From Denitrobaculum tricleocarpae (GTDB lineage: Bacteria > Pseudomonadota > Alphaproteobacteria > Kiloniellales > Kiloniellaceae), in assembly GCF_007004665.1 (NCBI RefSeq), contig NZ_ML660053.1, forward strand, positions 372,001 through 436,000: a DNA stretch of 64,000 bases. The letters run 5' to 3'. Of this stretch, positions 41,451 to 49,991 are shown one piece after another (positions within the stretch are counted from its first letter, which is position 1; the number at the start of each line of letters is the position of its first letter). The notes below the pieces were generated by a model that did no database searches, was not told the origin of the DNA, and saw only the letters and a program-made list of their open reading frames with translations. The position numbers and the translations under genes were made by a program.

Positions 41451-43058
41451 GTGAGGCAGAGCAATTCGGTCATGAACCTGGGGCACCTTATGACCCAGGC
41501 GGCACAGCGTTATGGCGAGCGAACGGCACTGGTTTGGGGCCCGAATTCCTGGACGTGGAGTGAGCTGAATAGCCGGGTTGATGCCCTTGCGGCGGGTCTA
41601 AGTGCGCGCGGGGTCGGCAAGGGCGACGCGATCCTGGTGCTCTCCCGCAATTCGAACCAGATGTTCGAATCCATGTGGGCGACCTTCAAGCTGGGCGCGG
41701 TCTGGGTGCCTTGCAACTTCAGGCTAACACCGCCGGAGGTCGCCTATCTCGCTGTGGCCAGCGGTGCCAAAGCCATGCTCTATGAGGACATCTTTGCCGC
41801 GCACGTGGATGCCGTGCGCGCCGGGGCGTCCAATCTCGAACAGGTGATCTGTGTCGGTTCCGCAGGTGATGGCGAGACCGGATATGAGGACATTGTTTCG
41901 GAGCACGACGGCGCGTGCTTTTCTGAAGCTCTCGTCGAGCACGACGATCCCTGCTGGTACTTCTTCACATCCGGTACGACGGGGCGGTCCAAGGCGGCGG
42001 TTTTGACCCACGGCCAGATGTGTTTTGTGGTCAATAACTACCTGGCCGATCAAATGCCGGGATTGGGGCCCGACGATGCGTCGCTGATTGTCGCGCCGCT
42101 CTCGCACGGGGCGGGAGTCCATGCGATGCCACAGGTCGTCCGTGGGGCAAAATCGGTCATGCTGCCGGGCAGCAGTTTTGACGAAGAGGCCGTCTGGCGT
42201 CTGATCGAGGAGCATTCCGTTGCGAACATGTTTACGGTGCCAACGATCCTGACACGCATGGTGCGCCATCCATCCGTTGACCGCTATGACCACTCCTCCT
42301 TGCGGCACGTTATCTATGCCGGCGCGCCGATGTACCGGGAAGACCAGGTCGCGGCGCTCAAAAAAATCGGCAAGGTCATCGTTCAGTACTACGGCCTGGG
42401 CGAAGTGACGGGCAGCATCACTTATCTGCCTGCCGAAGCGCATTCCATCGTCGATGAAGAGATGCCGGTCGGCAGTTGCGGTTTCGCCCGCAGCGGCATG
42501 GAGATTGCGATCCGGGATCCTGAGGGCGCAATTCTGCCGGCTGACAGGCGCGGCGAGATCTGCGTCCGTGGTCCCGCGGTGTTCGCGGGTTACCTCAACA
42601 ACCCGGAAGCCAATGCCAAGGTCTTCAAGGACGGCTGGTTCCACACCGGCGATCTGGGATATCTCGATGACCGCGGTTTTCTCTATCTGACGGGCCGGGC
42701 GTCGGACATGTATATTTCCGGCGGTTCGAATGTCTATCCGCGCGAGGCTGAAGAAGTTCTTCTGACCCATCCGGGCGTGGAAGAGGTTGCGGTTCTGGGA
42801 GTTCCCGATCCCAAGTGGGGCGAAGCCGGAGTGGCCGTGATCGTCAGGTCTTCCAGCGAAGAGGCGAGGGCTCTCTCGAAAGAAGAGTTGCTCGGTCACC
42901 TTGAAGGGAAGCTTTCTCGCTATAAGTTCCCTCAGGTGTTTGTGTTCTGGGACGAACTCCCCAAGTCGGGGTATGGCAAGGTTCCAAAGCACCTGATACG
43001 CGACGAACTCTATGCGCGCGGCGATCTGGTGAAGGACGGCGGTGGTGCGCGAAAATGA
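41451..43058 (+). CDS. AMP-forming acyl-CoA synthetase
   Basis: 535 residues from a GTG start (GGGGGAG upstream); ATG 41472 is an alternative. ANL-superfamily marks are present: the P-loop YFFTSGTTGRSKAAVLTHGQ (about residues 168-187), YYGLGEVTGSI, the hinge aspartate in TGDLGYLDDRGFLYLTGRAS and the C-terminal lysine in LPKSGYGKVPK. It activates a carboxylic acid to acyl-AMP and then acyl-CoA; chain length and ring type cannot be predicted. The stop overlaps the next start as ATGA (43055-43058), so it is coupled to the first PPC gene. Together with the thiolase upstream it suggests the breakdown of an organic acid. Confidence 0.92.
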   Translation: MRQSNSVMNLGHLMTQAAQRYGERTALVWGPNSWTWSELNSRVDALAAGLSARGVGKGDAILVLSRNSNQMFESMWATFKLGAVWVPCNFRLTPPEVAYLAVASGAKAMLYEDIFAAHVDAVRAGASNLEQVICVGSAGDGETGYEDIVSEHDGACFSEALVEHDDPCWYFFTSGTTGRSKAAVLTHGQMCFVVNNYLADQMPGLGPDDASLIVAPLSHGAGVHAMPQVVRGAKSVMLPGSSFDEEAVWRLIEEHSVANMFTVPTILTRMVRHPSVDRYDHSSLRHVIYAGAPMYREDQVAALKKIGKVIVQYYGLGEVTGSITYLPAEAHSIVDEEMPVGSCGFARSGMEIAIRDPEGAILPADRRGEICVRGPAVFAGYLNNPEANAKVFKDGWFHTGDLGYLDDRGFLYLTGRASDMYISGGSNVYPREAEEVLLTHPGVEEVAVLGVPDPKWGEAGVAVIVRSSSEEARALSKEELLGHLEGKLSRYKFPQVFVFWDELPKSGYGKVPKHLIRDELYARGDLVKDGGGARK

Positions 43059-43612
43059 CCAGGTTTGCAACAGAGGGTGGGGGCCAAAACGGACGCCGCC
43101 GGATTGAACAACCAGGAGCGCCGCTCTCGCCGCGGCGCATTTGTGTCCGGACCGAGACCGGTCCGGAATTGCGTTTGGAGCTTGATGCAGGCATGGATCT
43201 GCTTCCTGAGCTGGCGACTGTGCTCTCGACGCAAGGTGTCAGGAGCGCGGCCCTCCAGGCGCTTTCAGGTCATTTCGATAAAGTAAGCTACTTTACCGGC
43301 ATGGCCGACGAGACCGGCGCGCGCGTCGCGACCTATGGCGCCGCGCGGGTTTTGCAGGGGCCTGTCCTTCTGCTCGGCGCCAACGCGATTTTCGGGATCG
43401 GCGAAGAGGGTGTGCCATTGGTTCATTGCCACGCCGTCCTGGCAGATGCCCAGGGCCGGGTTCACGGCGGACATTTGCCGCTGGAGGGCTGCATTCTGGG
43501 CTCTCAGGGCGCGGTGATCATGGCGACGCCGTTGGAAGATGCCGGCTTCGAAGTCGCCTTTGACAGCGAGACCAATTACAGCCTGTTTCATCCAACCGTT
43601 ATGCCGGTTTGA
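43055..43612 (+). CDS. PPC/DUF296 domain protein with His motif
   Basis: 185 residues. After a polar N-terminal 30 residues comes a PPC (DUF296) domain of the kind seen in plant AT-hook proteins and in stand-alone bacterial proteins. LPLVHCHAVL-like residues (VPLVHCHAVLADAQGRVHGG) hold the His cluster that binds metal in bacterial structures, and HGGHLPLEGCILGSQGAVIM follows. There is no AT hook. The role of bacterial PPC proteins is not established. The start overlaps the stop of the acyl-CoA synthetase as ATGA, and a second PPC gene follows 17 bp later, so it belongs to that operon. Confidence 0.82.
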   Translation: MTRFATEGGGQNGRRRIEQPGAPLSPRRICVRTETGPELRLELDAGMDLLPELATVLSTQGVRSAALQALSGHFDKVSYFTGMADETGARVATYGAARVLQGPVLLLGANAIFGIGEEGVPLVHCHAVLADAQGRVHGGHLPLEGCILGSQGAVIMATPLEDAGFEVAFDSETNYSLFHPTVMPV

Positions 43613-43628
43613 GGGCAAGGAGAGGACG

Positions 43629-44057
43629 TTGAGCACAACCAGGATCGAACGTGGGAGCTTTGGCCGATCCGCAGTTATTCGTCTGCGGCCCAATGAAGAT
43701 CTGATCGAAGGCGTCGAACAGGCCTGCCTGGAGAGTGGGATCAGCCATGCCGTCGTGCGCTCAGCCGTTGGAAGTCTGGTGGACGCGGTCCTTGCGTATG
43801 GCGTGGGGCCGAAGGCTTCGCAGGGCGACGAAAACACCATTGTCGAGAAGGGGCCGGGTGTCGAAATTCTGACCCTGACCGGTGAGTTGGCACCGGGCGA
43901 GGACGGACGCCCGAAAGCGGACCTCAGGGGTACGATCTCGACACCGGATGCGCGTGTATTGGGCGGCAGGTTCCTGCCTGGCCGGAATTCGATTTGCATC
44001 ACTCTGGAACTGGTTATTCAAGAGTGGCTGCCGGAAACGGCTACCTTGCAACCGTAA
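43629..44057 (+). CDS. Second PPC/DUF296 domain protein, His motif lost
   Basis: 142 residues from a TTG start with GGAGAGG about 5 nt upstream; the frame is open to 43539 but the start codon there has no ribosome-binding site. It is another PPC domain: LIEGVEQACLESGISHAVVR, then VEILTLTGELA and DARVLGGRFLPGRNSICITL. Where the first paralogue has the His cluster this one has KADLRGTIS, so the metal site is gone. This suggests a catalytic/non-catalytic pair or a heterotrimer, since PPC domains are trimeric. A hairpin overlaps its stop codon. Confidence 0.78.
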   Translation: MSTTRIERGSFGRSAVIRLRPNEDLIEGVEQACLESGISHAVVRSAVGSLVDAVLAYGVGPKASQGDENTIVEKGPGVEILTLTGELAPGEDGRPKADLRGTISTPDARVLGGRFLPGRNSICITLELVIQEWLPETATLQP

Positions 44058-44076: not shown

Positions 44077-44357
44077 ATCAATTTGCGCCAAAACCAACCG
44101 TCAGGTGAAAAGCTAATCAAAAATTAACCATCGATGTTGTTGATTTGTTGGGTTATTAATTCGTCTGTCTGTGGTTATCACAGGTAGAGCAGCCGTATAT
44201 TTATGGTAGAAATCCGTTTTGTATGGTTCGAGTGAGATCAGTAGAGCTTTAACAATACCTTTAGGCTGTTTCGTGTACGTTTCTCGAATGCTTTCGGGTC
44301 CTCATCGTCGGGGCATCCAGTGGAGGCGGGGGTGTATCTGATGCGGGTGACTGCTTG
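44077..44357. promoter_or_regulatory. AT-rich region upstream of the sensor kinase operon
   Basis: No gene. It should contain the promoter of the two kinase genes. A small hairpin CTGTG-N5-CACAG is centred near 44177. No clear operator is seen. Confidence 0.4.
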
Positions 44358-45956
44358 ATGTCGATTATCGTCGTCATAGATGACCGAGTGACCAACCGCC
44401 GGGTTCTGGAGAAACTGGCGACCTCGATTGGTGACAACGTCACGGTGAAGGCGTTTGCCGAGCCGCAGGTCGCGCTTGAGTGGTCCAAAAGCAATGTCCC
44501 GGATCTGGTGGTGACCGACTTCAAGATGCCGAAGATGGACGGTGCCGAATTTATCCGCCGGTTCCGTGAACTGCCGCCCTGCATCGACGTGCCGGTTATG
44601 GTCGTGACGGCCTACGAAGATCAGGCATTTCGCTACGCGGCTCTGGAATCAGGGGCCACCGATTTTCTGCTCAGCCCCGTCGATCATCACGAGTTCCGCG
44701 CCCGATCGCGAAATCTGTTGAGTCTGCGTGAACATCAGAAACTCCTGAACGAGCGCGCGGTGAGCCTGGAACACCGCTACGAAACCGACAAGAGCCAGCT
44801 GGAACGGGCCCTGACCGAAAGTCACGAACGTCTTCTGCTGGTGATTGACGCGGTGCCGGCTATGATCTCGGCCACCACCGCCGGCGCGCGCTACGCTTTT
44901 ATGAACAATTATCAGGCGCAACTGTTCGGTGTGATTCCCGACGAAGCCGTTGGCCGGACAGCGGTGGAGCTTCTGAACAACGATTACGCGCAGAATTCAC
45001 TCACTCTGGATGAGCGCGCTTTCGCAACCGGTGAAGCGCCGCCTTTGTTTGAAGAAGAATTCGTCACCGTCAACAACGTCAAACGCATCTTCCTGACTTC
45101 CAAGTCGCTGGTCCGGGATTCGAGCGGGCAGGTCACCAACATCGTGACGGTTTCGTTTGATATCACGGAACGGAAAGCCGCGGAGCAGCAGCTTATTCAG
45201 GCCAAGGAACTGGCCGAGGTCGCGAACCGGAGCAAGACAGAATTCCTCGCGAATATGAGCCACGAGCTACGCACGCCATTGAACGCCATTATCGGCTATG
45301 CGCAGGTGATCGGGACAGAGCTGCTTGGGCCGATCGGCAATGAAAAGTACGGTGACTATGCCCGCAACATTGAAGAGAGCGGCAGCCTGCTGCTGCATAT
45401 CATCAAGGACATCCTCGATGTTTCGATGATTGAGGCAGGAACGATCGAGCTTCATGAAGAGGCCGTCGACCTGGCGGTTCTGGTGGATGACGTTCTGCGT
45501 CTTGCCGAAGAACGCGCCGCTGCCGCACAGATCGTTGTGCGAACCAACATCGAGTCGGGCGTTCCGCTTCTGATGGTTGACCCGGTAAAGGTAAAGCAGA
45601 TCCTGCTTAATCTCTTGGTGAATGCGCTCAAGTTCACGCTTAAAGCAGGCGAAGTTTCCGTTTCTGTCAGCAGAAGCAATGACGGTGTCGAGATCGCTGT
45701 TACCGACAACGGAGTCGGTATGACTGAAGAGGAAATAAAGATTGCGGTCACGCGGTTTGGGCGTTTGAGAAATTCCGAGACCCAGGCTGTTCCGGGGACG
45801 GGTCTTGGGCTTCCGCTCTCGATCGATCTGACCGAACTGCATGGTGGGAAGTTGCAGATCAAGAGTGACAAGGGTGTCGGTACCACCATCGTCGTCCTGT
45901 TTCCACATGACAGAATCCTGCAGGAGCCGCCCGACGAGCTGAGCGTTGGCGGCTGA
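44358..45956 (+). CDS. REC-PAS histidine kinase
   Basis: 532 residues from ATG 44358 (TTG 44355 is one codon upstream). Domain order: response-regulator receiver (residues 3-120, phospho-acceptor D54 in LVVTDFKMPKMDG), coiled coil (about 125-155), PAS (about 160-275), HisKA with H302 in ANMSHELRTPLNAIIGY, and HATPase with the N box NLLVNALKF and G boxes DNGVGM and GTGLGL. There is no membrane segment, so it is a cytosolic kinase that can itself be phosphorylated through the receiver. It is 14 bp from the RpfC-like hybrid kinase gene, which ends in an Hpt domain. Inference: that Hpt phosphorylates this receiver, or the two act in one relay. Confidence 0.9.
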   Translation: MSIIVVIDDRVTNRRVLEKLATSIGDNVTVKAFAEPQVALEWSKSNVPDLVVTDFKMPKMDGAEFIRRFRELPPCIDVPVMVVTAYEDQAFRYAALESGATDFLLSPVDHHEFRARSRNLLSLREHQKLLNERAVSLEHRYETDKSQLERALTESHERLLLVIDAVPAMISATTAGARYAFMNNYQAQLFGVIPDEAVGRTAVELLNNDYAQNSLTLDERAFATGEAPPLFEEEFVTVNNVKRIFLTSKSLVRDSSGQVTNIVTVSFDITERKAAEQQLIQAKELAEVANRSKTEFLANMSHELRTPLNAIIGYAQVIGTELLGPIGNEKYGDYARNIEESGSLLLHIIKDILDVSMIEAGTIELHEEAVDLAVLVDDVLRLAEERAAAAQIVVRTNIESGVPLLMVDPVKVKQILLNLLVNALKFTLKAGEVSVSVSRSNDGVEIAVTDNGVGMTEEEIKIAVTRFGRLRNSETQAVPGTGLGLPLSIDLTELHGGKLQIKSDKGVGTTIVVLFPHDRILQEPPDELSVGG

Positions 45957-45970
45957 AAAAAGTCCACTCG

Positions 45971-48877
45971 ATGGAGAATGGCAACAACATAACCAACGAT
46001 CAACCGGTCAAGCAGACCCCTGAGGGGACTGCGACCCAAGCGCTTGTTGCATCAGGACCAAAGGCCTTGCACAAACGAACGCGTATCGCGGTCTGCGCGC
46101 TAATCGTTTCGGCCTTTGCAAGTATTGCCGTTGTCGCGGCGCAGTTTCTGGTGACAGGCTTGCCGCTACGGGCGTGGCCTGTCGACTCCCTCATTCTCAT
46201 TGCATCTCTTGTCGCGACACCTGTGGCTCTGGCCGTTGTCTGGTGGCCCCGCCGCTATGCCGTGGATCAGGCGCTCGCAAAACGGCCCGACAGCGAGCAT
46301 GAGCAGGCGACGATCCGTATGGCGCTTGGCGGCGTCGCTATGCTCTATCTGTCTCTTGCAAGCCTCTACATCGAGTCACACCAGGGTCTGGAGCTGGCCG
46401 CGACAGCCATGGCGTGGGGACTGTGCGTGGGCTGGCTGGCGCTTCTTCATATTGTGCTCTCGCCGGCACAGTCGACGCCGCGGCGCGGTGCAATGGCCAT
46501 GGTCGATCTGCTCACGCTCAGCTACATGCTGGCCGTCGGCGGCGGACCGGCATCTGTGTTGTTCCCGATCTATCTCTGGGTGACCTTCGGCAACGGTTTC
46601 AGGTACGGCGTCAGTTTCCTGGTCTTCTCCGCTATGATCAGCACTTTGGGCTTTGGCGGTGCGGTTTTGACCAGCAGCTATTGGTCCAGCAACAACTTCG
46701 TGGCATCCGGTTTGCTCATTTCGCTGATTGTGTTGCCGGCATATGTTTCGACGCTCATCAAAAAGCTCAACCGGGCACGGGCGCAGGCAGAAGAAGCCAG
46801 TCAGGCAAAAAGCAGGTTCCTGGCCACCATGAGCCATGAACTGCGTACACCGCTCACCGCGGTGATATCGACGGGCGACCTGCTTGAGACAACGTCTCTG
46901 GATGCCGACCAGAGGTCCATGATCGGCACGGTTCAGACTTCTGCCAAAACTCTCTTGTCACTGATCAATGAGATTCTGGACCTCTCGCGGATTGAGGCCG
47001 GGAAGCAAAATCTCGACTTGGGCGACATCGACGTGTGCGAGGTCGTGGCATCGGTTTGGCGCATGCTGCATACCCAGGCCGAGCAGAAAGGCCTGCAGCT
47101 TCGGGTTTCGCTGGATGCGCGCCTGCAGGTCCGGCTTGTTGGCGACAGCAAGCGGCTGACGCAGATCCTGGTCAATCTGGTTGGTAATGCGATCAAGTTC
47201 ACAACGGAGGGAGAGGTCGAGATTTCCGCCCGCCTGACCGAGCACAAGGGACGGCAGGATATCGTCCTGCTCTCCGTGCGCGACACAGGCATCGGCGTGG
47301 CGCCGGAAAAACTTGGATCGATCTTTGACGGCTTCACCCAGGCTGACGATGCGATTAACCGGCGTTATGGCGGAACGGGCCTCGGACTGACCATCACAAA
47401 ACAGCTGGTCGAGATGATGGGCGGTGAAATCGAGGTTCTCAGTCAGGAAGGTCAGGGCAGTCAGTTCAACCTCTCCATCCCCTTCGATCTCGGGGAGCCG
47501 GCGGAGATCGCTGCAGCAAAGGTTGATGCGACGGAGAACGCCGCGGCAGATGCGACATCCGGGGTGACAGCTGAATCACAGACGTCCGGCATCCTGCCTG
47601 TTATCGTTTGTATCGCCGAACCGCACAGAGGCCGGATCGCCGCGGTGCTTCAGGGGCCGGAGGTCAAAACCGTCGATCGAATCGACGAAGCAATACCCGC
47701 GATCGAGGGCTATCGCGGCATGGGGCATCTTTTGATCGTGGTCGGGTCCGACGAGCACGACGAGCTCTCCGGGCCGCTCATGGGATATCTCGCGGACCGT
47801 GGCGCCAACGATGGCATCGCCATTGTCGAAGTCTCTGCAGAGGGTGGGGCCGTCTCGTCTGAACGGAGGTGGCCGGTCGATGTGGTCATCTCGGCGCCTG
47901 CCGAGACCGGGGCTTTTTCGACCGCGCTGCATCAGGCCGGTCTCTTTTGCATGTCGGGTGTCTCCAGAGGCGCAGCGGATGAGGCTGAGACCGGAGACGC
48001 TGCGGTGCCCGACGCCGCACGCCGCAAAATCCTGTTGGTTGACGACAACCGCACAAATCGCAGCGTGATTTCACGAGTGCTGGAGAATGCCGGGCATGTC
48101 GTAGAGACCGCCGAAGACGGAGACGACGCTCTGGATCGCCTGGATGCGGAGGCTTTCGATATCGTCCTGACCGACATCAATATGCCGGGCACCAGCGGTC
48201 TCGACCTCACCAAGATGTACCGTGTTCTCAATACCGGTGAGCCACACATGCCCATCGTCGCCCTGACCGCAGATGCCACAGAGCAGGCGAAGCAGGATTG
48301 CCGCGAGGCCGGCATGGACGGTTATCTGACAAAGCCTGTGGAGGCTCAGCAGCTCCTGGCCCTCGTGCGGGAACTGACGCTTGATGTTGCGGCTGCGGGC
48401 GGTGACAGGTTCGATGCGGGAGCCGCCCCGGCGCATGACCCGCTTCCGGAACGGCCCGCTCAGCTCATCACGCCGATTTCCGCGCATCCGAAATATGGCG
48501 GCGCATCAAACGAAACAGTTCTTGATCCGGATGCGCTGGATGCGCTTCGCGCCCTTGATACCGATGAAGCCTTCGTCGCCGAGATCTTTGATGGTTTCCT
48601 GGTCGACGCGGCGGCGACAATGGTCAACCTGAACCAGGCTTTCGACAATGGAGACCTGGCAGCCTTCCACGATGAGGCTCATGCTCTGCGCAGCAGCGCG
48701 GGTTATGTCGGTGCCAAGCGCATGGTCAGGCTGCTGCTGGACATGCGTGAGTGCGGACCTGACCGGGATAACGACCGCACCCGTGCACTCCTGGCGGAAC
48801 TGAACAGTGAATTCGACATGGTTCGAGCCGCAGTTGGACGCGAGCTCGCCCAGGACCGCCGCGCGACACCCAACTAG
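45971..48877 (+). CDS. RpfC-like hybrid histidine kinase (DSF sensor candidate)
   Basis: 968 residues: a membrane input domain with about 6-8 hydrophobic segments (residues 39-262), HisKA with H289 (ATMSHELRTPLTAV), HATPase, a receiver with D735 (LTDINMPG) and an Hpt domain with H904 (EAHALRSSAGYVGA). This order and the membrane segment PIYLWVTFGNGFRYGVSFL are those of RpfC, the receptor for the diffusible signal factor in Xanthomonas. A loop of about 180 residues with low similarity lies between the kinase and the receiver. The rpfF homologue is convergent 100 bp downstream. No RpfG-type HD-GYP protein is present, so the output is unclear. It is probably cotranscribed with the REC-PAS kinase. 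Confidence 0.87.
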   Translation: MENGNNITNDQPVKQTPEGTATQALVASGPKALHKRTRIAVCALIVSAFASIAVVAAQFLVTGLPLRAWPVDSLILIASLVATPVALAVVWWPRRYAVDQALAKRPDSEHEQATIRMALGGVAMLYLSLASLYIESHQGLELAATAMAWGLCVGWLALLHIVLSPAQSTPRRGAMAMVDLLTLSYMLAVGGGPASVLFPIYLWVTFGNGFRYGVSFLVFSAMISTLGFGGAVLTSSYWSSNNFVASGLLISLIVLPAYVSTLIKKLNRARAQAEEASQAKSRFLATMSHELRTPLTAVISTGDLLETTSLDADQRSMIGTVQTSAKTLLSLINEILDLSRIEAGKQNLDLGDIDVCEVVASVWRMLHTQAEQKGLQLRVSLDARLQVRLVGDSKRLTQILVNLVGNAIKFTTEGEVEISARLTEHKGRQDIVLLSVRDTGIGVAPEKLGSIFDGFTQADDAINRRYGGTGLGLTITKQLVEMMGGEIEVLSQEGQGSQFNLSIPFDLGEPAEIAAAKVDATENAAADATSGVTAESQTSGILPVIVCIAEPHRGRIAAVLQGPEVKTVDRIDEAIPAIEGYRGMGHLLIVVGSDEHDELSGPLMGYLADRGANDGIAIVEVSAEGGAVSSERRWPVDVVISAPAETGAFSTALHQAGLFCMSGVSRGAADEAETGDAAVPDAARRKILLVDDNRTNRSVISRVLENAGHVVETAEDGDDALDRLDAEAFDIVLTDINMPGTSGLDLTKMYRVLNTGEPHMPIVALTADATEQAKQDCREAGMDGYLTKPVEAQQLLALVRELTLDVAAAGGDRFDAGAAPAHDPLPERPAQLITPISAHPKYGGASNETVLDPDALDALRALDTDEAFVAEIFDGFLVDAAATMVNLNQAFDNGDLAAFHDEAHALRSSAGYVGAKRMVRLLLDMRECGPDRDNDRTRALLAELNSEFDMVRAAVGRELAQDRRATPN

Positions 48878-48913
48878 CAAAGATCTGGCGGGTAAGAATG
48901 ACAGGCAAAGAAA

Positions 48914-48954
48914 CGGCTCTGAACCCCCTGCTTTCACGAGGCGCTTCAGAGCCG
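48914..48954. terminator. Terminator shared by the rpfC-like and rpfF genes
   Basis: 10-bp perfect arms CGGCTCTGAA and TTCAGAGCCG with a 21-nt loop. On the minus strand the arm is followed by TTTCTTT, fitting the end of rpfF; on the plus strand it lies 37 bp after the kinase stop. Confidence 0.7.
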
Positions 48955-48977
48955 CTCTGTTCTGTCGAGCTGTTGGG

Positions 48978-49991
48978 TCAGGCTGACTTCAAGACCCTCT
49001 CGCGACGCCGGTCCTGAGCCGAGACCAGGCGTCCCATCTTCTTCAGGTCGGTTTCTTCGAGCGTCATAGCGGTGTCGACCCACATGTCTGTGATGTCCAT
49101 CATCTCTTTCAGAGTCACCGGATTGATGCGCTGGCGAGCCTGAAAGATCGCTCTGTGGGCTGCATGCCGCCGGTCATTCTTGGCAATGTACTGGTGCAAG
49201 GCTTCTTCACCGCGACCATCGTCCGCCAGAACGTCGACAACACCCAGCTCATAAAGCTCTTCAGCACTATAGAGACGTCCGCTCATGATCATGCGTTCGG
49301 CGCGGCCGGGCGCTATCCGGCGCGACAAAAAGCTGTAGGCGCCCATGCCCGGGAAGAGGCTGAAAAGAATCTCCGGCAAGCCGAACTTCGCACTTCGCTC
49401 CGCAACGATAAGGTTACTCGAGAGTGCCGCCTCAAAGCCGCCGCCGAGCGCATCACCCTGGATCAGGGCCACGGTAATGATGGGGAGGTTGAGGTTTGTC
49501 CAGTTGGCGTAGCCTTCCCGCACGACCCGATAGGCATATTCGCGCAGTTTATCGCGGTTCTGAGTCCTGATCAGATCGGCGAAAAGACTCAGATCCCCAC
49601 CCAGATTCCATACGCCGGGCATCCGGGAGGCCCAGACGAGGTACTTCAGCTTGTTCGCACGCGGATCAGACTTTTCGTAGGTTGTCCGGAGCGTCTGCTG
49701 AACCTTGCTGATGTCATTCAGCAGGGCAGGGGTGAAGCTGGGGCGGTCTTCAAAGTCGAACCAGCAAGTGCATATTTCATCCCGCCCGGAAAAAACCAGT
49801 TCCATCTCCTCAAGATCGAGGCGCGTGAGCTCGTCCTTAATATCCAGACTGCGGTCTGCCATTGCCCGTTTGACGGCGGTCCGGGCTTTTTCCGCTGTGG
49901 ACGACGGCACCTGTGAGCTGCGATCGAAGAGCGGGTTCGGTGAGACGGGTTTCTCAACATTTTCAGCTCTGTTGCCAAGCTGCTCGAGCAT
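48978..49991 (-). CDS. rpfF: RpfF homologue, DSF synthase candidate (crotonase fold)
   Basis: RpfF makes cis-2-unsaturated fatty acid signals from 3-hydroxyacyl-ACP by dehydration and thioester cleavage. 337 residues against 289 in Xanthomonas RpfF; the extra part is a polar N-terminal extension of about 50 residues. The two catalytic glutamates that mark RpfF among crotonases are both present: E187 in GGGFEAALSS and E207 in GLPEILFSLFPGMGAYSFL, 20 residues apart as E141 and E161 are in Xanthomonas. Further matches are GVWNLGGDLSLFADLIR and TDMWVDTAMTLEETDLKKM. It lies tail-to-tail with the RpfC-like kinase. An ordinary enoyl-CoA hydratase is unlikely given both glutamates and the C-terminal match. 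Confidence 0.9.
   Translation of the reverse strand: MLEQLGNRAENVEKPVSPNPLFDRSSQVPSSTAEKARTAVKRAMADRSLDIKDELTRLDLEEMELVFSGRDEICTCWFDFEDRPSFTPALLNDISKVQQTLRTTYEKSDPRANKLKYLVWASRMPGVWNLGGDLSLFADLIRTQNRDKLREYAYRVVREGYANWTNLNLPIITVALIQGDALGGGFEAALSSNLIVAERSAKFGLPEILFSLFPGMGAYSFLSRRIAPGRAERMIMSGRLYSAEELYELGVVDVLADDGRGEEALHQYIAKNDRRHAAHRAIFQARQRINPVTLKEMMDITDMWVDTAMTLEETDLKKMGRLVSAQDRRRERVLKSA

Follow-up and report, generated by a model that had tools for sequence, protein, structure and literature searches.

A DSF-type synthase and RpfC-type receptor adjoining a receiver-PAS-histidine kinase in Denitrobaculum tricleocarpae

The two core routes of DSF signalling, through RpfG and through RpfR, both end in cyclic di-GMP (c-di-GMP) turnover according to the available portions of the reviews, PA1396/PA1397 and RpfS forming side branches. 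The 64,000-nucleotide stretch of Denitrobaculum tricleocarpae DNA analysed here (the window) carries rpfF and rpfC homologues together with a histidine kinase gene in the position of rpfG. The three genes lie where a preliminary description had placed them, with rpfF convergent with the hybrid kinase gene, and all residues named there (E187, E207, H289, D735, H904 and D54) were correct. The locus is a variant of the RpfF/RpfC system for which a literature search found no earlier description. It is likely a DSF-type cell-density system in which RpfF and RpfC are kept and the output is a two-kinase cascade. Because the part that lowers c-di-GMP is replaced by a second kinase, density is probably read through a phosphorylation chain in this organism.

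The RpfF-family synthase homologue

The rpfF gene (48978–49991, minus strand) encodes a 337-residue homologue of DSF-family synthases with the catalytic pair E187/E207, assigned by NCBIfam, PDB and fold searches. It matched PRK08788 at 358 bits, against a cut-off of 177. With the NCBIfam equivalog SgnlFctrSynRpfF it scored 248.7 bits, below the curated cut-off of 550, which was also missed by five of seven REC-HD-GYP loci (226–370 bits) and therefore looks narrow; the protein counts as an RpfF-family member but falls outside that equivalog. The best four distinct sequences in the PDB search were RpfF proteins. The first 12 Foldseek rows were all solved DSF synthases (chains of 3m6m, 3m6n, 5fus, 7zq7 and 6dgn; E 7e-25 to 2e-22), with the next row at only 2e-14.

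The available text of PMC9040811 names E141 and E161 as catalytic, together with G86 and G138, in Xanthomonas RpfF. When aligned with 3m6m, these glutamates and glycines are present in the window protein as E187, E207, G132 and G184. Both glutamates were found in all 102 aligned RpfF rows, in which glycines 131, 132 and 184 and W304 were also invariant. Production of a cis-2-enoic acid is thus predicted from family, fold and catalytic residues. A grouping with housekeeping enoyl-CoA hydratases had been set beforehand as the refutation of this identity. In the tree, the RpfF rows split from the host's own hydratases at 99% support, a comparison covering the three of eight hydratases that could be aligned to the RpfF core (47–61 bits), the other five having failed to align. 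This and the receiver tree described below are quick trees built with no bootstrap. A housekeeping hydratase identity for the 48978–49991 protein was rejected on the tree together with the fold search.

The receptor kinase and the protein in the RpfG position

The rpfC gene (45971–48877, plus strand) encodes a membrane hybrid kinase of 968 residues, assigned by Pfam, input homology and PDB matches, in which the input is followed by HisKA (H289), HATPase, REC (D735) and Hpt (H904). Pfam placed these domains in the RpfC order. The preliminary description had this order right but understated the likeness, since homology extends over the input and five DSF-sensing residues. When compared with the RpfC inputs of five loci that carry a REC-HD-GYP gene, the input showed 33–36% identity to those of L130–L133 (88–109 bits) and 32% to that of L134 (64 bits). 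A Foldseek search with the input model returned no matches at E ≤ 0.001. The best PDB match of the REC domain was the RpfC REC 3m6m_D (88.5 bits, the next at 77.3). Residues R15, D17, S18, E19 and Q22 of Xanthomonas RpfC are given as essential for DSF sensing in the available text of PMC5391125, and sequence comparison places all five in the window kinase as R105, D107, S108, E109 and Q112, within an RPDSEHEQ motif (46283–46306, plus strand). As far as homology goes, the hybrid kinase is an RpfC homologue, including its membrane input and DSF-sensing residues.

The adjoining gene (44358–45956, plus strand) encodes a 532-residue protein placed in the RpfG position by its REC grouping, for which Pfam gave the architecture REC-PAS_4-HisKA-HATPase, with PAS_4-HisKA-HATPase in place of HD-GYP. 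The gene starts at the ATG at 44358; the listed open reading frame begins at the neighbouring TTG at 44355. From the Pfam results, RpfG was dropped as an identity given the lack of an HD-GYP output, as was RpfR given the lack of GGDEF and EAL; the PAS_4 and kinase domains are features of the RpfS type. The expectation that no HD-GYP gene lies nearby held, the genome search having found HD-GYP in two places, both away from the locus, accompanied by REC in one case and by PAS_4 in the other.

The window receiver showed 39–48% identity to seven RpfG-type receivers (97–125 bits), whereas 18 distinct receivers from other places in the genome scored 37–76 bits. Since a REC-GGDEF paralogue encoded at another site comes about equally near (109–117 bits), this kinship is not exclusive to RpfG. 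On the receiver tree the window REC grouped with the cassette and RpfG receivers, the joining branch being at 90%, below the starred level. The 28 loci given as background to this tree, from a genome with 54 receiver matches in all, produced 21 rows, which with three identical rows and one paralogue duplicate came to 18 distinct receivers. The sequences point to kinship of the receiver with RpfG receivers and show the exchange of HD-GYP for a PAS_4-histidine kinase. The GGDEF-EAL locus L061 was placed within the kinase clade of the same tree.

The phospho-acceptor D54 (44517–44519, plus strand) is conserved in 76/76 receivers of the cassette clade, as are both acidic residues, and position 84 is T or S in all 76. 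Where receivers usually have lysine, the alignment places S106 (44673–44675, plus strand). This position, unexpectedly, is Ser, Thr or Ala in all 76 clade receivers, against Lys in 7/7 RpfG-type receivers and in all 18 distinct receivers taken from the host genome as background. Normal phospho-switching is doubtful in a receiver without the usual lysine, and transfer from the Hpt domain to D54 is for this reason less certain than first stated.

Conservation of the cassette and exchange of its output

Homologues of both partner genes were present at 69 of 80 related rpfF loci sampled, and 61 of these 69 three-gene loci have the convergent order of the window, which argues that the set is not a chance association. 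The remaining 11 loci lack both partners together, four of them with at least 20 kb in view, and of 23 further loci with an RpfC-type input, seven have no receiver gene of the RpfG-position kind. The sample spans Sphingomonadales, Hyphomicrobiales, Acetobacterales, Rhodospirillales and Geminicoccales. Alphaproteobacteria carry the cassette widely, usually with PAS-GGDEF-EAL as its output, and the window is not an isolated case. Within the host family Kiloniellaceae (23 genomes sampled), rpfF was found in 4/4 genomes of the genus and 0/19 of other genera.

The receiver output is PAS-GGDEF-EAL in 51 of the 69 three-gene loci, HD-GYP in the seven RpfG-type loci, and the clade that includes the window has a PAS-histidine kinase there. 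Mapped on the RpfF tree, the four states (HisKA, HisKA_2, GGDEF-EAL and HD-GYP) need three changes, the minimum for four states, and a single change to HisKA is enough. This count omits 15 RpfF rows lacking a typed receiver, three with neither output, four 'RpfR-like' rows and three hydratases. Output types were assigned by motif. Two pairs of loci were set by hand, L037 and L079 as GGDEF-EAL, L021 and L022 as HisKA_2; one of each pair (L037 and L022) was run through Pfam. The kinase type of L020, one of 109 candidates, was taken from the remaining protein as its contig has no receiver. One count over the three-gene loci used 67 of 69 rows, omitting L064 and L092, and a 10-row count used nine, omitting L131, in which no H box was found.

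No conserved fourth gene was found in 20 loci and the window, nor a family widely common to the kinase-type loci; outside the genus, other shared families (kinases aside) connect no more than three loci, most of them closely related. A 10-bp inverted repeat read from the sequence (48914–48954), in the gap where rpfC and rpfF converge, is a possible terminator. It was missed by a terminator scan with a loop limit of 8, and promoter and terminator scans of the locus performed no better than chance.

Reading of the signal and competing explanations

The sequence evidence supports the earlier proposal of a DSF synthase paired with its receptor, the place of RpfG being taken by a REC-PAS kinase. 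From its family, fold and catalytic residues, RpfF would make a cis-2-unsaturated fatty acid from acyl-ACP. Given the five conserved residues, the acid may bind the RpfC-type kinase at its RPDSEHEQ motif next to the membrane, and the kinase would autophosphorylate at H289 and, as its architecture suggests, pass phosphate to D735 and then H904. The putative acceptor is the RpfG-related receiver of the adjoining REC-PAS-kinase, which would then drive a putative response regulator. Such a two-kinase cascade, and not c-di-GMP hydrolysis, would form the direct output. Weighing against this reading are the absent lysine, the low equivalog score, the similarly close REC-GGDEF paralogue, the loci that lack partner or receiver genes, and the restriction of rpfF to a single genus among the family genomes sampled. 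A search for a connection between the second kinase and DivK yielded none: the 14 nearest genome paralogues of this kinase were all at 40–49% identity, and the PdhS and DivJ models matched it far under their cut-offs.

That the protein is an ordinary enoyl-CoA hydratase next to an unrelated two-component system is highly improbable: the crotonase fold and the upstream fatty-acid metabolism genes (acyl-CoA synthetase, thiolase-like) would fit, but the tree, the fold search, the cassette conservation and the poor match of the host's hydratases to RpfF contradict it. An RpfF-family synthase whose signal is not a cis-2-enoic acid, or which acts mainly as an acyl-ACP thioesterase, with RpfC sensing the product, is quite unlikely. 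Identity to the solved Xanthomonas RpfF (3m6m, 3m6n) is 41–42% over the aligned fold, and the N-terminus is longer (337 residues for the whole protein, against 289 for the RpfF reading frame of L131), its first 30 residues having low model confidence. Against this stand the invariant catalytic pair, glycines and tryptophan, and a receptor with all five DSF-sensing residues.

Somewhat unlikely, too, is a true DSF synthase/RpfC pair whose lysine-less receiver serves as a docking site for RpfF or RpfC or as a pseudo-receiver, with PAS_4 possibly binding the signal. The clade-wide loss of lysine favours it, and docking has precedents in RpfF bound to the RpfC REC (entry title of 3m6m) and in Xylella RpfF, proposed in the available text of PMC4504480 to interact with several REC proteins. 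The same text describes DSF binding by RpfS through PAS_4. Retention of the acidic residues, D54 and T/S84 suggests instead that phosphorylation is still selected, and the PDB sequence matches of the window PAS did not include the RpfR PAS, the best being BvgS at 1.4e-5; the idea of a DSF-binding PAS recognisable from sequence was dropped on this result. Bolder, and rather doubtful, is an alphaproteobacterial DSF branch that combines a non-standard, lysine-less RpfG-like receiver, a PAS_4 that possibly reads the acid and interchangeable outputs, the kinase output feeding a kinase network. If true, population density in the window's clade would be fed into a kinase network of Alphaproteobacteria, perhaps to a regulator of the DivK type, and not into c-di-GMP.

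The favoured two-kinase system shares with Xanthomonas RpfF/RpfC/RpfG the RpfF fold and catalytic residues, the RpfC-type input with its five DSF-sensing residues, the HisKA-REC-Hpt order, and the convergent arrangement, in which rpfC is preceded by the receiver gene. It differs from RpfG in the PAS_4-histidine kinase and the lost receiver lysine, from Xanthomonas RpfC in two additional N-terminal helices ahead of the sensor motif, and from Xanthomonas RpfF in a longer N-terminus. As far as the available texts describe them, Burkholderia and Cronobacter also have an RpfF-family synthase convergent with a receptor gene (PMC4504480, PMC6361424), whereas their receptor is FI-PAS-GGDEF-EAL and not a membrane RpfC-type kinase. 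Xanthomonas RpfS likewise is a histidine kinase that contains PAS_4 and belongs to a DSF circuit, but the available text of PMC4504480 mentions no N-terminal receiver, which the window kinase has. Pseudomonas PA1396/PA1397 similarly couples an RpfC-like input to a non-RpfG output, but is described in the available texts with a kinase lacking Hpt, a DNA-binding output and signals from foreign species (PMC4504480, PMC6536496).

With synthase, receptor and receiver kept and the output exchanged by clade, these loci are natural constructs for signal rewiring. The cassette predicts DSF-type communication in many Alphaproteobacteria, and its clade-wide lysine-less receiver offers a test case for how receivers switch. 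The position of the RPDSEHEQ motif that corresponds to residue 22 of Xanthomonas RpfC is Q or M, in step with the output type of the locus, and this difference may correspond to different signals.

Gene content of the locus and its synthase

All three genes, together with the residues picked out in the preliminary description, were located as claimed, by sequence, Pfam and receiver alignment, in a genome of 6.4 Mb (window G000:C2:372001-436000). The REC-PAS-kinase gene (44358-45956, forward strand) is followed head to tail, after a 14-base spacer, by the rpfC-type hybrid kinase gene (45971-48877, forward strand), and rpfF (48978-49991, reverse strand) is convergent with both, 100 bases separating the gene ends. 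A 10-bp inverted repeat (48914-48923 / 48945-48954) was read off the sequence in the rpfC-rpfF gap. Two overlapping PCC-domain genes lie at 43055-44057, 3' of an acyl-CoA synthetase gene and a thiolase-like gene. The reading of the locus as a DSF signalling system proved sound and its extent somewhat larger than first stated: the cassette varies a known system across a whole clade, its output being exchanged and its receiver unusual, and we infer its function throughout.

RpfF of the window matched NCBIfam PRK08788 with 358 bits (cut-off 177) and scored 248.7 bits for SgnlFctrSynRpfF, under that model's cut-off of 550. Its four top distinct PDB sequences were all of the RpfF family (7zq7, 3m6m, 6dgn and 5fus; E 7.5e-57 to 6e-48), with the next crotonase at E 3e-16. 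An AlphaFold2 model built from 27 sequences (mean pLDDT 85.9) returned RpfF, DfsA and Rpf-1 structures in rows 1-12 of a fold search (TM-score by target 0.90-0.94); row 12 had E 2e-22 and row 13 E 2e-14. Glycines 131, 132 and 184, both catalytic glutamates and W304 are invariant in 102/102 RpfF rows. The own-genome hydratases (3 aligned of 8 given) do not keep W304 and differ in part at the other invariant positions, and the phylogeny proposed as a check split the RpfF rows from these three with 99% support. At one locus, in a single MAG (L080:9932-11821), RpfF and a Haem_oxygenas_2 (iron-containing redox) domain form one protein, perhaps a signal-modifying fusion.

The receptor and its sensor motif

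Homology of the hybrid kinase to RpfC goes past domain order, on which its assignment had been based, and takes in the membrane input. Compared with inputs at rpfF loci that carry a REC-HD-GYP gene, the window input showed 32-36% identity (L130 34%, 88 bits; L131 35%, 89; L132 33%, 95; L133 36%, 109; L134 32%, 64); the genomes of L130 and L131 (G394 and G304) pass the strict RpfF cut-off. The best PDB match of the hybrid-kinase receiver was the RpfC receiver crystallised with RpfF (3m6m_D, 88.5 bits; next 77.3). Between HATPase and REC, about 180 residues (507-686; window 47489-48028) had no Pfam match. The RpfC at L130:4600-7329 has a tandem pair of input domains with a sensor motif in each, and reads like an RpfH-RpfC fusion, with RpfH as described in an excerpt of PMC4504480.

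In Xanthomonas, R15, D17, S18, E19 and Q22 of the sensor are required for DSF sensing (PMC5391125), and the window RpfC has R105, D107, S108, E109 and Q112 with identical spacing. The strict pattern R.DSE..Q was present in 12/69 RpfC-like proteins at loci among the best 80 rpfF relatives, distributed as 11 of the 15 with kinase output (13 HisKA, 2 HisKA_2) versus 1 of 54 others. In the 67 of 69 RpfC-like rows that were scored (L020-L099), residue 22 almost exactly tracked output type: Q in all 15 kinase-output rows, M 39, I 6, L 3 and Q 1 in the 49 GGDEF-EAL rows, and M in 3/3 rows with neither output. E19 was retained in 66/67. The exchange of Q for M, I or L may mark a different signal or a different binding mode.

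A structure model of the input (window 45971-46849; 40 sequences, mean pLDDT 84.9) places two membrane-length helices ahead of the sensor motif and six past it. Mean K+R per loop alternates over the 40 rows (3.52, 0.30, 2.98, 0.05, 1.32, 0.40, 4.78), as it does in 9 rows from other loci (3.33, 0.67, 3.11, 0.11, 1.67, 0.33, 4.78), and because of this alternation the motif would sit in the cytoplasm. Model and loop charges thus suggest six helices past a cytoplasmic motif. This prediction conflicts with the published model of five helices and a periplasmic N-terminus, which an excerpt of PMC5391125 terms putative and which reporter fusions back for PA1396 (excerpt of PMC6536496).

Exchanged outputs on a receiver without the usual lysine

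The cassette was sampled by contig scan over the best 80 of at least 487 rpfF relatives, a sample possibly leaving out the window's own genus. RpfC-like and REC-PAS homologues occurred together at 69/80 of these loci, in the order rpfF> <rpfC <receiver at 61/69. Of the 11 loci without both partners, seven span 4-18 kb and four show more than 20 kb (L032, L035, L056 and L085); therefore some rpfF genes are solitary. Outputs were typed by motif, with Pfam run on nine receiver proteins: at the 69 loci these were GGDEF-EAL (51), HisKA (13), HisKA_2 (2, both Skermanella) and neither (3), while the HD-GYP motif occurred in the receiver protein at seven further loci (L130-L134, L137 and L139; Pfam agrees for L130).

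Scores of the window receiver were 97-125 bits with the seven RpfG-type receivers and 109-117 bits with a REC-GGDEF paralogue found in the genus, and 18 further distinct receivers from its own genome gave 37-76 bits. In the receiver tree, GGDEF-EAL, kinase and 'neither' receivers formed a single 76-row group (97%), comprising 75 receivers adjoining rpfC and one orphan (G044); RpfG-type and paralogue receivers fell outside it, within an 88-row group whose 90% support is below the starred level. The RpfF tree united all 18 HisKA and 2 HisKA_2 rows with 4 rows lacking a receiver (24 rows, 99%) and needed three changes for four outputs, the minimum, so a single switch to HisKA output is enough on that tree. 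The exception is L061, a GGDEF-EAL receiver placed in the receiver tree within a 21-row group (99%) otherwise holding all 17 HisKA, 2 HisKA_2 and the G044 orphan. That orphan is a REC-kinase protein (L245:8419-10173) with a receiver of the cassette clade; in G044 (91% complete), RpfF was not found, nor any RpfC input past the H-box stretch, so that the protein is perhaps an orphan or the assembly has a gap. The window's genome also encodes a second REC- and Hpt-containing hybrid kinase (L226:3685-7200). The REC-GGDEF protein beside it has the receiver that, within this genome, is most closely related to the cassette receiver.

Both acidic residues and D54 are retained in 76/76 clade receivers, and residue 84 is T or S in all of them. 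Where receivers normally have a lysine ahead of proline, these have S in 70 (48 GGDEF-EAL, 17 HisKA, 2 HisKA_2, 3 neither), T in 5 (4 GGDEF-EAL and G044) and A in 1 (GGDEF-EAL). Lysine was present in 7/7 RpfG-type receivers, 4/4 REC-GGDEF paralogues and 18/18 distinct background receivers sampled from the own genome (54 receiver matches in all). In CheY-type receivers this lysine is required for phosphorylation to lead to conformational change. The cassette receiver either signals in an alternative mode or else serves as a docking module.

The genes present, their order and homology, the catalytic and sensor residues, the swapped output and the lost lysine are established. The RpfF product would be a fatty acid that binds the RpfC sensor motif, and phosphate would pass from H289 through D735 and H904 to D54, placing the REC-PAS-kinase under control of the relay. 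H302, the N box and two G boxes of this second kinase appear intact by eye. A feedback hold of RpfF by the RpfC receiver at low density, as described for Xanthomonas (PMC4504480), is plausible by analogy.

Relation to known systems and distribution

An excerpt of PMC4504480 gives two core DSF perception routes, RpfC/RpfG and RpfR, with side branches RpfS and PA1396/PA1397; it describes rpfGHC as convergent with rpfF, and rpfF-rpfG-rpfC clusters in Methylophaga, Leptospirillum, Thiobacillus and Methylobacillus. RpfC/RpfG homologues are not new to the class per se, since a KEGG-based survey, as excerpted, gives the pair for alphaproteobacteria (PMC8895600). Both core routes end in c-di-GMP (PMC13220807), and DSF output without it has a claimed precedent in Lysobacter, in the title of PMC8463545. 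Among the matches listed from published literature, with preprints and most subscription journals outside scope, none deals with an rpfF-rpfC cassette of Alphaproteobacteria whose output is PAS-GGDEF-EAL or a PAS-kinase.

Around the window and 20 loci of the kinase type or related to it, no further gene family recurred widely as a fourth conserved gene. An RpfC-type input was present at 23/34 further loci, 16 of which carry a cassette-kind receiver gene (7 HD-GYP, 4 GGDEF-EAL, 5 kinase); this receiver gene was absent at the other seven (L136, L153, L156 and L160-L163). Three of the 80 records are titled outside Alphaproteobacteria (L032 Terriglobia, L036 Mycobacterium, L043 Burkholderiales), and the L036 receiver is near-identical to those of Inquilinus loci in the receiver tree. 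RpfF (E <= 1e-30) is patchily distributed over 58 close genomes, being found in 4/4 of the genus, 0/19 from elsewhere in the family and 7/35 from elsewhere in the order. At E <= 1e-45, it was matched in 50 of 397 genomes spread over the phylum.
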